From contig SXWC01000035.1 in NCBI GenBank assembly GCA_005789975.1, forward strand, positions 1-26,823: DNA of 26,823 bases, written 5' to 3'. The translations under genes were made by a program, and so were the position numbers. This stretch comes from Planctomycetaceae bacterium. GTDB taxonomy: Bacteria > Planctomycetota > Planctomycetia > Pirellulales > UBA1268. Positions within the stretch are counted from its first letter, which is position 1, and every line of letters starts with the position of its first letter. The notes beneath the pieces are model-generated. The model worked only from the letters and a program-made list of their open reading frames with translations. It made no database searches and had not been told where the DNA came from. Of this stretch, positions 8,526 to 23,688 are shown piece by piece.

Positions 8526-9746
8526 ATGCTCGCATCCCCGGTGGCCAGCCCGCCAAGGCTTCGGATCCCCCCGCCCATGCCCCCTCTGCCCCGCTTCCGC
8601 GTCGCGATCGCCGCCGCGATCGCGGTCTGGTTGGGCCATGGGGCGGCGGCGGACGACGCCACGGTTTCGAGGGAACGGATCGAAGTCCGCACCGCGAACG
8701 GCCGCCGCACGGTCGATGCCGCCGTGCTCGTCGAGGCGGTCGATGGCGGCCTGCTCGTGGAACTCGCCGACGAGCGGTATGAACTGCTCCAGCCCTCTGC
8801 GATCGCCGAACGGCGGCCGCTCACCGCCGCCCCCGCCGAGGAGACACCCCGGGAACTCGGGACGCGGATCCTCGCGGACCTGCCCGCCGGCTTCGACGTG
8901 CTCGTCACCAGGCACTACGTGGTCTGCTTCGACACCTCGCGCGACTACGCAAGGTGGTGCGCGGCGCTGTTCGAGCGGCTCCACGAGGCCTTCGGCAACT
9001 TCTGGAGCAAGGCGGGGCTCGAGGTGTTCGATCCGCCCCGACCGCTCGTGGTCGTGATCTTCGCCGATCGGCGGAGGTACGAGGCCCACGCGAGCCGTGA
9101 TCTCGGTGCCGCGAGCGACCGCGTGGTGGGCTACTACAACCTGCTGACCAACCGCGTCACCACGTTCGACCTCACAGGCACCGACGGGGTGCCGCGGCCC
9201 GCCGGACGAGGCTCGCCCGGCACCGCCCTCGAAATCCTGACGAGCCCCGCGGCGGCCGGCCTGGTCGCCACGCTCGTGCACGAGGCGACCCACCAGATGG
9301 CCTTCAACTGCGGCATGCACCGCCGCCTCGCCCCGGTGCCTCTCTGGGTCAGCGAAGGCATCGCCACCTATTTCGAGACGCCCGATCTGAAAAACACCCG
9401 CGGCTGGCGGGGCATCGGCAACGTGAATCGCCCCCGCCTCGACCACTTCCTCGCGACCCACCGGCCGGGTGACATCGCGGCAATCATCACTTCCGACGAC
9501 CGCTTCCGCGCCGCCGAAGGACCCCTCGACGCCTACGCCGCCGCCTGGTCGCTCACGAGGCACCTCGTCGAGACGCGGAAGAAGGAGTTCACCGACTACC
9601 TGCGGACGCAGGCCGCCAAACCCCCGCTCGCCGAGGATTCCGTCGCCGAGCGGCGCCGGGATTTCGAGGCGGCATTCGGGCAGTCGCCCGAAGCGATCGA
9701 GCAGGAGGTCGTCAAGGCGATGGCGCGGCTCGCGTCACAGCGCTGA
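8526..9746 (+). CDS. Secreted DUF1570 family putative zinc metallopeptidase
   Basis: 406 residues from the first ATG. A better start may be the ATG at 8577, which begins directly with a signal peptide (MPPLPRFRVAIAAAIAVWLG, cleavage near HGAAADD); neither start has a good ribosome binding site. The C-terminal half shows the gluzincin-like pair HEATHQ (the HExxH zinc motif, around residue 258) and WVSEGIATYFE downstream, whose Glu is the expected third ligand. A short N-terminal region (SRERIEVRTANGRRTVDAAV) looks like a small beta domain. DUF1570 proteins are common in planctomycetes and are presumed envelope or periplasmic peptidases; the substrate is unknown. It is followed by 250 nt without a gene that contain structured element A. 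Confidence 0.85.
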   Translation: MLASPVASPPRLRIPPPMPPLPRFRVAIAAAIAVWLGHGAAADDATVSRERIEVRTANGRRTVDAAVLVEAVDGGLLVELADERYELLQPSAIAERRPLTAAPAEETPRELGTRILADLPAGFDVLVTRHYVVCFDTSRDYARWCAALFERLHEAFGNFWSKAGLEVFDPPRPLVVVIFADRRRYEAHASRDLGAASDRVVGYYNLLTNRVTTFDLTGTDGVPRPAGRGSPGTALEILTSPAAAGLVATLVHEATHQMAFNCGMHRRLAPVPLWVSEGIATYFETPDLKNTRGWRGIGNVNRPRLDHFLATHRPGDIAAIITSDDRFRAAEGPLDAYAAAWSLTRHLVETRKKEFTDYLRTQAAKPPLAEDSVAERRRDFEAAFGQSPEAIEQEVVKAMARLASQR

Positions 9747-9794
9747 GCCGTCGCCGGCGGCTCGGCCGGAAGAAACGTCCGGGGATCCCGGCAG

Positions 9795-9906
9795 ACCGTG
9801 GAACAAGTCGGCTCGAGCAGGATGCGAGGATCGTCGACCGCGGAAACCCCCGGCTTTTCCGCCGGGCGATCCGGTGGACAAAGGTCATGGATGACTTCGT
9901 TCATGG
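9795..9906 (+). ncRNA. Structured intergenic element, copy A
   Basis: This 112-nt stretch aligns without gaps to 22754-22865 (88 of 112 identical by hand count). Its two ends pair into a long stem: CCGUG with CAUGG, AAC with GUU and AAGUC with GACUU, 13 bp with a single bulge or mismatch at two points. Inside, GGATCG (element positions 34-39) pairs with CGATCC (73-78), and an apical hairpin CCCGGC-TTTTCC-GCCGGG occupies 9849-9866. G-U pairs favour the plus strand as the RNA. It fills the gap between the DUF1570 gene and the oxidoreductase. It may be a small RNA or a miniature mobile element with terminal inverted repeats. No known family was recognised. Confidence 0.5.
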
Positions 9907-9996
9907 ACAGCCGGGCCGACGCCCACCGCCTCCGGCGGCGGGCGACTTGAGCCACGGCCTGCTAAGTTGAGAGCATTCCGGTGAAGGTCCTTCCCC

Positions 9997-11250
9997 ATGT
10001 CTGGAGATGATCGCATGGCGCCTGATGTGTCTCGCCGGCGGGTCAACCGCCGCTCGTTTCTCGGCGGCTCGTTGGCCGCCGCCACGGTCGGCTCGCTGCC
10101 TGCCGGCGGCGTGTTCGCGGCCGGAAGCGACCTGATCCGCGTGGGTCTCGTCGGCTGTGGCGGCCGCGGCACCGGCGCCGCGCTGCAGGCCGTCGCCGCC
10201 GATCCCGGCGTGATGGTCACGGCCGTCGGCGATCTCTTCTCCGCCCACCTTGCCGCGTCCGTCGAGATCCTCGCGGCACGGCTCGGCGACCGCTTCGCCT
10301 GCCCCGCTGCCAGCCGCTTCACCGGCGCGGCCGCCGGATTCGACACGATCGCGGCCGACATCGACATGGTGATTCTGGCCACGCCGCCGCACCTGCGGCC
10401 CGCGCACGTCGCCGCCGCGGTCGCCGCCAGCCGCCACATCTACTGCGAGACGCCCGCGGCCGTCGATGCGGCGGGCACGCGGTCGATCCTCGCGTTGGGC
10501 GCCGAGGCCCGACGCCGGGGGCTCTCGTTCGCCTCCGGAATGCACTCGCGGCACGACGAGCGGCTCAAGCAGACGATCGGCAGCGTGCTCGACGGCGCCA
10601 TCGGGCGGCCGGTCCGCGGCGTGGCGACGGCCCGACTCGGCCTTCCCTGGCGCCGCGGGCCGCTCCCGGGCTGGTCCCCGGCCGACGCAGCCGCTCGCAA
10701 CTGGATCAGCGACCCGAACGCATCGGGGGGCTGTGTCGTCGAACACCACATCCACGCGATCGACCGCCTGCTGTGGGCGTTCGGCGACGTGGCTCCGGTC
10801 GCCGCCGTGCCGGTCGCCCCGCCGCTCGTCCTCCCTCCGGGCCCCCCGGCCGCCGAATCATCGACGGTCGCCGTGCGGCTTGTCTTCGGCGACGGTGGCT
10901 CGCTCGCCGCCGGCATCGAACGCCGCGCGGGCACGACCACGGAAACCGTGGAACGGTTGGTCGGCACGCGGGGAGAGGCCGATCTTTGCACGCATGCCGT
11001 GTCGGGACGACGCTCCCTGCCCGCGGCGGGAGGCCTGCCCGACAGCCATGCCGCCTGCATGGCCGCGCTCGTCCGCTCGTTGAGGTCGGGGGCGCGGATC
11101 GACGACCTTGCGATGCTCTGCCGGAGCACCATGGTGGCCCTGCTCGCACGCGAGGCGGCCGGGGCCGGGCGGCCGGTGGCGTGGTCGGACCTCTGGCCCA
11201 CAGCCCCGGATTCCCCGCCGCTACGACCCCTACAGAGTGACATCGTGTGA
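9997..11250 (+). CDS. Tat-exported Gfo/Idh/MocA family protein lacking the catalytic lysine
   Basis: 417 residues. The N-terminus has a twin-arginine signal (RRRVNRRSFLGG followed by a hydrophobic stretch to about 42), so it is exported folded with its cofactor. The Rossmann domain begins at 47 with IRVGLVGCGGRGTG, and LATPPHLRPAHVAAAV is typical of the family. In normal members the sequence is EKP and the Lys takes part in hydride transfer; here it reads CETPAAVD (Glu151-Thr152-Pro153, codon acg at 10450-10452). The domain-swap region still has GGCVVEHHIHAIDRLLWAFGD. Planctomycetes hold many secreted paralogues thought to act on sugars or carbohydrate derivatives; whether this one is an enzyme is open. 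AAGG lies about 9 nt before the ATG, within a small palindrome (gaaggtccttc). Confidence 0.88.
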   Translation: MSGDDRMAPDVSRRRVNRRSFLGGSLAAATVGSLPAGGVFAAGSDLIRVGLVGCGGRGTGAALQAVAADPGVMVTAVGDLFSAHLAASVEILAARLGDRFACPAASRFTGAAAGFDTIAADIDMVILATPPHLRPAHVAAAVAASRHIYCETPAAVDAAGTRSILALGAEARRRGLSFASGMHSRHDERLKQTIGSVLDGAIGRPVRGVATARLGLPWRRGPLPGWSPADAAARNWISDPNASGGCVVEHHIHAIDRLLWAFGDVAPVAAVPVAPPLVLPPGPPAAESSTVAVRLVFGDGGSLAAGIERRAGTTTETVERLVGTRGEADLCTHAVSGRRSLPAAGGLPDSHAACMAALVRSLRSGARIDDLAMLCRSTMVALLAREAAGAGRPVAWSDLWPTAPDSPPLRPLQSDIV

Positions 11251-22730: not shown

Positions 22731-22753
22731 CTGCTGCTCCGCTGCCTGATCAC

Positions 22754-22865
22754 ACCGTGAAACAAGTCTGCCCGGGCAGGATACGAGGATCCTCGATCGG
22801 GGAAATCACCGGCGTTTCCCGCGGTCGATCAGGTGGACGCTGGTCATGCATGATGTTGTCCACGG
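22754..22865 (+). ncRNA. Structured intergenic element, copy B
   Basis: 112 nt aligned end to end with 9795-9906 (about 79% identity, no gaps). Its ends pair as CCGTG with CACGG and ACAA with TTGT plus GTC with GAT, in a slightly shifted register from copy A. The central hairpin is kept with changed pairs (ACC.GCG-TTTCC-CGC.GGT). A perfect palindrome CGAGGATCCTCG lies at 22784-22795. It occupies most of the gap between the transporter gene and the ABC permease stop at 22870, with both genes on the minus strand, so a plus-strand RNA would need its own promoter. Confidence 0.5.
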
Positions 22866-22869
22866 CCTG

Positions 22870-23688
22870 TCAGCTCGACGCTGAACGGTACTTCGCCAGC
22901 GCCCGCTGGAAGATGAGTCGGGAAGCGACCAGGGATCCGATCGCAGCGACGGCGGCGGCCGCCACGCCCACCCACGCCTGCCCTGTCAGTGGCTGGGCGA
23001 TCACCCGCGCCGGCACGTTGACCACGAGCAGGATCGGGATCACGAACGTGCAGAGCATCCGCAGCGGCCCACCCCAGGGGCCCGAATAGATCTCGGCGGG
23101 ATACCGGGAAAAGTTCGTGATGTAGAACCAGAAGTCGTAGAGGCTCTGATTGCGGCCCATGAGGATCGTCGCCGCGGCGAGCATGATCACGAAGCCGTAG
23201 AGGATCGAGACCCCGCAGACGATCAGGAGCGGATAGAGGACCCAGGCCACGACGGGCGGTGGCTGATCCAGCCGGGGCACGGCCCACGCCAGGAGTCCCA
23301 CGCCGACCAGCCCGTTGGCGAGTGCCGAGAAGTCCACCCGGTGCAGCGACAGCAGAAACTGCGCGTCGAGCGGCTGCACGAGCACGGCGTCGAGTCCGCC
23401 GGTGCGCACCATCTCGGTGAGTTCCTCGGCGCTCGGCATGAAGAAGGCCTGCACGATCGAGTTGATGATCAGCCCGGTCGCCACGAAGGCGAAGAAGGGC
23501 TCCTTCGACCAGCCCGTCCCCTTGCCGATCTCGGGAGTGAACGTGAACACGAGGAGATAAAACGCCAGATTCATCGACATCCAGCCGAGGCTCGTGACGC
23601 ACTCGAGGATGAAGTTCGCCCGGAACGTCATGTCGCGGACGAGACATGCCCGCGCGAAGGTGAGAAAGATGGCGAGATAGCGGCCCAC
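22870..23688 (-). CDS. ABC-2 family transporter permease, second subunit
   Basis: 272 residues from a GTG at 23688, chosen because GGAGG lies 5 nt upstream and the gene then follows the preceding stop (23690) with one nt between. An ATG at 23724 gives a longer protein with 35 nt of overlap. It has about six membrane helices. Family PF06182-like phrases are RYLAIFLTFARACLVRDM, RANFILECVTSLGWMSMNLAFY, AEELTEMVRTGGLDAVLVQPLD and DFWFYITNFSRYPAEIY. These permeases work as a pair with an ABC ATPase to export a compound or lipid. The end abuts structured element B. Confidence 0.9.
   Translation of the reverse strand: MGRYLAIFLTFARACLVRDMTFRANFILECVTSLGWMSMNLAFYLLVFTFTPEIGKGTGWSKEPFFAFVATGLIINSIVQAFFMPSAEELTEMVRTGGLDAVLVQPLDAQFLLSLHRVDFSALANGLVGVGLLAWAVPRLDQPPPVVAWVLYPLLIVCGVSILYGFVIMLAAATILMGRNQSLYDFWFYITNFSRYPAEIYSGPWGGPLRMLCTFVIPILLVVNVPARVIAQPLTGQAWVGVAAAAVAAIGSLVASRLIFQRALAKYRSASS

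Follow-up and report, generated by a model that had tools for sequence, protein, structure and literature searches.

Two short intergenic segments of the window, by which we mean the whole stretch of 26,823 nucleotides analysed here, closely resemble each other, and the question they raise is whether they reflect selection on an RNA structure or are copies of a miniature mobile element with terminal inverted repeats, the two alternatives left by the preliminary description. The identity it reported, 88 of 112 positions without gaps, was found again, and a 31-base pattern derived from both copies matched the two sites at 0 mismatches; none of 100 shuffles of the window matched it, even with 3 mismatches allowed. 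The limits of 112 nt were too short, each copy in fact measuring 119 bp: copy A lies at 9792-9910 (+ strand; nhmmer, 104 bits; covariance model R1, 111.2 bits, E 1.1e-33), and copy B at 22751-22869 (+ strand; nhmmer, 84.6 bits; R1, 92.1 bits, E 1.5e-27). The paired ends noticed at first, CCGTG with CATGG in A and CCGTG with CACGG in B, were confirmed, and both are parts of terminal inverted repeats.

Copy A is located between a DUF1570 gene ending at 9746 and a Gfo/Idh/MocA oxidoreductase gene starting at 9997 (Pfam assignments), all on the same strand. Its left terminal inverted repeat, CAGACCGTGGAACAAGTC, occupies 9792-9809 and the right one, CTTCGTTCATGGACAG, 9895-9910 (both + strand), and the 4-mer CCGG is found on either side, at 9788-9791 and 9911-9914. 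A third copy, C, partial and inverted, abuts A at 9915-9961 (- strand). Only its left half is present, with its own end at 9961 followed outward on its strand by TTAG; it scored 20.8 bits with nhmmer (E 1.3e-4, 9912-9965) and 38.7 bits with the covariance model (E 2e-10, 9831-9964, a match that extends into A). Copy B directly adjoins the stop codon of a - strand gene for an ABC-2 permease (Pfam ABC2_membrane_6): the TCAG at its right end (22870-22873, - strand) contains, in its first three bases, the permease stop codon TGA. The 4-mers flanking B, TGAT and TCAG, do not match, unlike those of A. No transposase was recognised among the window proteins scanned, a plasmid collection gave 0 matches, and an exact 22-base pattern was found 0 times in genome contigs. 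A 16-base pattern had 26 loci in viral contigs, which were treated as chance; the alignments of these to A and B were short (14-28 bases), around the pattern or scattered.

Relatives were reached through the DNA polymerase I of the window, which pointed to two closely related metagenome genomes whose protein is 89% identical (locus L027 in genome G001, L028 in G002) and to two more distant planctomycetes (73% and 67%). Copy A served as the BLAST query (E ≤ 1e-3) against the family of G002, represented by 72 genomes of one species each. Further copies, the existence of which in related planctomycetes was one of the points to be checked, were found in at least 49 of the 72 genomes: at least 42 by BLAST and 7 more, blank to BLAST, by R1 (G005, G015, G021, G023, G037, G057 and G058). 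Copy A also matched G001 and G004, weakly and in part, and these matches were left out of the counts. In all, 133 distinct copies were collected. An end pattern, searched on both strands, had 172 matches in G011, 63 in G020, 62 in G045, 53 in G019, 22 in G041, 17 in G042, 12 in G050 and 10 in G049, compared to 0-2 for the reversed pattern in each of these 8 genomes. Many left ends in G011 read TGTGGATAAAG, which we take to resemble a DnaA box. A class-wide search with R1, under stricter filters than the family search, was positive in at least 19 of 397 genomes, 14 of them within the family's 72. Outside the family five genomes matched: G120 at 46.6 bits, G390 with 3 copies of 34-38 bits each, and three others whose scores were close to the threshold. 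The G390 copies (L216, L217, L218) are longer, 155-171 nt in the covariance model match, with ends CAGCCCGTTGAA...TTCAACGGACTG and CTAG-like flanks.

Complete copies start like CAGACYGTGGAACAAGTC, finish like CTTTGTCCACGGACAG, carry terminal inverted repeats, and have a 4-mer of consensus CTAG on either side; 59 of 100 measured copies are 119 bp long, within a range of 107-155. Duplication of the 4-mer was evaluated on 48 non-duplicate full copies, three further matches being dropped for want of an anchor. Out of 192 positions, 142 are the same in the two flanking 4-mers (the shuffles average 109.4, and 0 of 20000 reach 142), and the duplication is perfect in 21 of the 48 copies, against a shuffle mean of 5.4. 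Agreement between 4-mer and reverse complement was at chance (103 versus 104). Duplications other than CTAG were also seen, namely GTAG/GTAG, CTCA/CTCA, CGAG/CGAG, CCAG/CCAG and, around A in the window, CCGG/CCGG. In some head-to-tail copies, the 4-mer is common to neighbouring units.

Sites without the element were found in relatives. The window is collinear with L027 and L028 over the stretch compared, except around A: in L027 the site measures about 90 nt and the element is absent, and in L028 a different repeat is present instead of it. The genes flanking site B are separated, counting what lies outside the matches, by 48 nt in G001 and by 184 nt in the window, and the same gene end is without element in G001, G002 and G003. 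A copy of G041 sits in a 263-nt intergenic gap. In all seven relatives inspected, a subset of the many genomes possessing both G041 flanks, 34-55 nt separate the same two genes. No copy was detected by nhmmer (E ≤ 1) over the 13 empty-site loci. None of these sites is empty to the exact base, and the gap in G041 is larger than the element. The L067 site, sought in G001 and G003, gave many scattered matches.

Which enzyme could have moved these copies? IS701 (DDE_5) was rejected as a parent: it was found in 7 of the 72 genomes, and two copies, although flanked by CTAG, end differently. Elements of IS701 type at L179:1300-2765 and L180:1300-2760 have the ends TTCGACTTTTGCAG and likewise lie between CTAG 4-mers; in L180, the sequence directly after the element starts like another CAGGCCGTGG end. 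A DDE_Tnp_1 search, positive in 6 of 13 genomes, was the route to a better candidate. An intact transposase of 448 aa with domains DUF772 and DDE_Tnp_1_6 is encoded in G041 (L269:832-2178). The best of the 6 models listed for it is IS1182 NF033551 (E 1.4e-53), at a score, 182.5 bits, below the cut-off of 270, and we therefore call it IS1182-like, or a divergent member of that family. Such a transposase was found in 21 of the 72 genomes, many copies being fragments or containing stops. In L307, the insertion sequence (IS) starts after a flanking CTAG with CAGCCTGTGGAAAAAGTC and finishes with CACTTTGTCCACGGCCTG before a second CTAG; its right end is to be compared with that of copy A, as the IS left ends are with the left end of A. 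Other IS copies are similar, and a few flanks deviate, for instance on the left side of the G041 copy, which has ATAG. Between IS and element, the terminal repeats correspond over some 16-18 bp with mismatches, and in none of the genomes were both seen with identical ends.

Since this IS1182-like IS resembles the repeat in its ends and is also flanked by CTAG, an IS1182-type MITE is the best reading of the repeat, which the enzyme of a larger transposon appears to have moved. IS and element share terminal repeats of the type CAGRCYGTGG..AAAGTC; the element differs in having no transposase and an interior unrelated to the IS end regions examined. Over these regions (about 118 nt on the left, 80 nt on the right), only the terminal repeat is common to IS and element, and judged from these regions the interior is not IS-derived. 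We conclude that the mobile-element alternative was right, supported as it is by the 4-bp duplications, by relatives' sites without the element and by an IS1182-like candidate parent with matching ends. The concern that the copies might lie inside known transposon ends proved partly justified, in that the ends which the element itself carries belong to a known IS family.

The other alternative, selection on RNA structure, concerns the interior. Folded singly, A and B do not surpass shuffled sequence (z scores of 0.13 and -0.10), and for this reason the structure described here rests on the family alignment and not on the two copies of the window. Alignment A1 contains 44 copies, and a structure of 33 pairs in three hairpins, H2, H3 and H4, was drawn from the pairs of highest mutual information, the top column pairs (55-103, 28-49, 63-84, 113-153, 27-50 and 128-148) being nested. 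In copy A, H2 lies at 9813-9829 (columns 27-50, loop AGGAT), H3 at 9833-9870 (columns 54-104, loop around CCCCCGG) and H4 at 9874-9904 (columns 108-158, hexaloop ATGGAT), all on the + strand. In copy B, which falls into the same columns without gaps relative to A, they occupy 22772-22788 (loop AGGAT), 22792-22829 and 22833-22863 (loop ATGCAT, without GGA), also on the + strand. A further hairpin, H1 (CAGACT/AGTCTG), was left out of the model, being paired in only part of the copies, and RNAalifold alone gave 15 pairs and missed H2.

Paired cells make up 90.8% of the total versus 80.1% in shuffles, 17 pairs show double changes versus 10.7, and covariation is 0.275 versus 0.107 (0 of 500 shuffles in each case; slid structures reach at most 0.071). 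These figures should not be taken as probabilities: the alignment on which they were obtained also served to choose the structure, and copies that share descent can surpass shuffles even when unstructured. The family alignment shows covariation beyond shuffles, and the covariance model recovered the extra copies in 7 genomes mentioned above. The initial two-copy evidence was too thin by itself, and one part of it was not reproduced: at the closing pair of the central hairpin, columns 69/77 as placed here, a change from C-G to A-T was announced, and we read C.T in A and T.G in B. A true double change between A and B, from C-G to G-C, is present at columns 63/84 of the family alignment; at 62/85, the pair beside it, A has G-C and B has G.G. 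The covariation over the 44 copies supports, for the family, selection on a base-paired form.

Conservation of the interior extends to features outside the pairs. The H2 loop is NGGAT in 35 of 44 copies and contains GGA in 38, with CAGGATG in 18; the H4 loop has the form C-ANGGAN-G, with ANGGA in 36 of 44; the H3 loop is conserved and CCTCGGC-like (CCUCGGC in RNA letters); and a bulged G at column 127 is kept in 42 of 44. Within H2, two G.A/A.G mismatches (15 copies) alternate with two C-G pairs (19 copies). A relative at L127:11957-12077, scoring 65.9 bits with the covariance model, keeps the fold and two loops, its stem bases being largely different. MITE interiors are generally expected to decay freely. 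Here the three-hairpin interior was kept, which suggests that the hairpins themselves do something.

Some arrays and shared loci deserve mention. Tandem copies were observed at L125:6144-6450 (end of G019:C1), in L126 and in L128, some of them at or near contig ends; the G019 units have a period of 105 nt and miss the left part of the unit. In the distant relative L127:11700-12100, tandem units of about 104-106 nt have different stems and the same H3 loop, and one has an ATGGAT loop. Copies at one locus were found in three genomes (L110:1495-1620, L115:241-366 and L111:1478-1603). Between L110 and L115 a 240-nt flank is identical and several differences fall within the element, maybe by gene conversion or assembly error.

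Could the compensatory changes have arisen by mutation alone? Arm-to-arm correction is known for quasipalindromes, and template switching between the arms of an imperfect palindrome would restore pairing without selection; in its favour, the helices H3 and H4 are long. This would leave unexplained the conserved loops, the bulged G at column 127 and the switch between mismatches and C-G pairs in H2, and we regard such a mutational artefact as very improbable. Compensatory changes and conserved loops together favour selection on a single-stranded form, RNA or DNA.

Between these two forms, counts of wobble pairs were used. G.U cells outnumber A.C cells 61 to 44 (p 0.12) in the 44 non-redundant copies found by BLAST or end pattern (loci up to L174), and 108 to 70 once copies found by the covariance model were added, a set biased by its ascertainment. 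The form under selection, base-paired according to the covariation, may thus be RNA. The hairpins might instead be selected as DNA, as cruciforms or single-strand hairpins used by the IS1182-type transposase, the interior then belonging to the transposition machinery and having no RNA function. In favour of this, the asymmetry falls short of significance when copies found by the covariance model are left aside, copies occur in both orientations, and such a role for DNA has to be envisaged because IS1272, cited as a member of the IS1182 family, is reported to replace target stem-loops by a mechanism proposed to be structure-dependent (passages of PMC5678879). The same passages report IS1272 to transpose without target duplications, unlike the element (PMC5678879). 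The three hairpins are, moreover, absent from the IS end regions examined, and loop sequences are conserved while stems vary. A role purely as DNA is thus possible, although we consider it rather unlikely.

Our preferred reading, which we hold with good confidence, is that A, B and C belong to an IS1182-type MITE mobilised in trans, with a hairpin module of its own selected in single-stranded form, most likely as protein-bound RNA. An IS1182-type DDE transposase would recognise the terminal repeats and mobilise the element in trans, and insertion at a CTAG-like 4-bp target would duplicate the latter. The element would carry, between IS-type ends, its own three-hairpin module, transcribed either along with adjacent genes or under its own promoter. 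The hairpins would be selected in single-stranded form, most likely as RNA, and their conserved loops would be bound by a protein; both the RNA step and the protein are what we infer.

Around the insertion sites, genes were called with a simple codon-score caller trained on the window genes, and 93 copies could be judged. A gene stop codon falls within the 4-mer in 36 of the 93: at the right end, the gene being antisense to the element, in 29 cases (copy B of the window among them), at the left end in 8, and at both in 1 (binomial p 0.0008). This comparison sets only the two orientations against each other, and p values are approximate, because some copies are orthologous (L110, L111) or closely related. 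CTAG often consists of a stop codon plus the preceding base, and insertions at gene ends therefore keep the stop. As for gene context, 30 copies lie between convergent and 13 between divergent genes, and between genes of the same direction 20 are sense and 37 antisense (33 of the 133 copies were unclassed). The same orientation bias would be expected if the target preference of the transposase were itself asymmetric; among IS copies at scored gene stops, few in number, 2 have the stop at the right end and 0 at the left.

A candidate for the bound protein is CsrA. The element might be a mobile CsrA-binding RNA, its GGA loops binding CsrA and its copies acting as sponges or as CsrA sites on neighbouring transcripts. 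The counts for H4 (ANGGA, 36 of 44) and H2 (NGGAT, 35 of 44) point in this direction. CAGGAUG is the repeat of CsrB, and the hairpin loops of TwoAYGGAY RNAs are AYGGAY. According to parts of a review, the RsmE hexaloop is ANGGAN and the CsrA SELEX consensus RUACARGGAUGU (PMC7652899); the loops of the element match the former and resemble the latter. CsrA is encoded in 72 of 72 related genomes, by 1-6 genes each, which makes the reading feasible and, every genome of the family encoding it, does not discriminate. GGA also occurs, by our own reading, in the two hairpins of a second repeat family whose ends are different, in 12 of 13 loops of one hairpin and in 13 of 13 of the other; as background, GGA was found in 33 and TCC in 40 of 521 hairpin loops of 5-6 nt (25 loci, second family unmasked). 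The comparison with Rfam gave 0 matches at gathering level over the whole window, and, by E-value, 9 weak matches over 6 related loci. One of these is RsmV, on the element of L114 and on the same strand (E 0.61, 16.6 bits versus a cut-off of 100), and it is the best match to a known Csr/Rsm RNA family, none of which reached its cut-off.

Other observations argue against CsrA. The H4 loop of copy B is ATGCAT, and H2 in the G005 subfamily has ACGAT. Most SELEX ligands have at most 4 contiguous pairs according to the same parts of PMC7652899, and the H4 stems of the element exceed this length. Copies at gene ends are mostly antisense, and readthrough from that gene therefore yields UCC and not GGA. 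On balance, we consider CsrA binding by the element unlikely. The broader proposal, that a transposon family disperses CsrA-binding hairpins as a mobile, high-copy Csr sponge or plug-in CsrA site, the second repeat family carrying loops of the same kind between unrelated ends, is put forward with even more reserve.

The second repeat family has 17-bp terminal repeats, GGGGCTGCCCGTGCCCC, and two GGA-loop hairpins flanked by GNA/GNA internal loops. It was matched 17 times, 13 copies being aligned, with loci L028:4600-4790 (- strand), L127:5134-5330, L094, L083, L132, L137 and L151, and it is one of its copies that takes the place of copy A in G002.

The MITE reading invites comparison with repeats already described, the element itself having no description that we found in the openly licensed PMC literature. 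RUP of Streptococcus pneumoniae, an IS630-type MITE of 107 bp with 108 copies, whose mover was inferred from ends shared with the IS, is likewise short, multicopy and IS-ended; it differs by its IS family, its TA target and, as far as the passages of PMC2229807 devoted to it go, the lack of a known functional motif inside. CIR (about 110 bp) and ERIC (about 127 bp) are intergenic repeats with RNA structure; CIR exposes a conserved GANTC near a loop, and ERIC acts on mRNA in an orientation-dependent manner (extracts of PMC2229807). Compared with these by description, the element has covariation over many genomes, three hairpins and a named candidate parent IS. GTAG/CGTC REP elements, also known from Planctomycetes, are high-copy palindromes of 20-40 bp with a tetranucleotide at one end (sections of PMC3733652). 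This definition of RAYT-associated REP/REPIN sequences does not apply to the present element, which mostly measures 119 bp, ends in terminal repeats and has a duplicated 4-mer on either side. Hairpin loops of the type ANGGA (PMC7652899, in part) or AYGGAY are also a feature of CsrB/Rsm-type RNAs and of the TwoAYGGAY motif, the latter named in a table of PMC2864571; unlike these, the element consists of dispersed mobile copies and not of one gene. The Rhodopirellula-1 motif, listed for Proteobacteria and Planctomycetes in the same table of PMC2864571, may be related to the element.

The family is best read as a new one of IS1182-type MITEs with an unusually well kept structured interior, whose function is putative. 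Tandem copies at or near contig ends indicate that the element may disturb assemblies in this lineage. The analysis ties it to a concrete protein candidate, CsrA, and to an insertion niche, stop codons with an orientation bias; if CsrA binding were true, the predominance of antisense copies at stop codons would result from selection that keeps CsrA sites out of the mRNA of the gene concerned. An IS1182-type MITE that keeps a three-hairpin module and its loops over at least 49 species-level genomes offers a clear test case of the question whether functional RNA is carried by mobile repeats.
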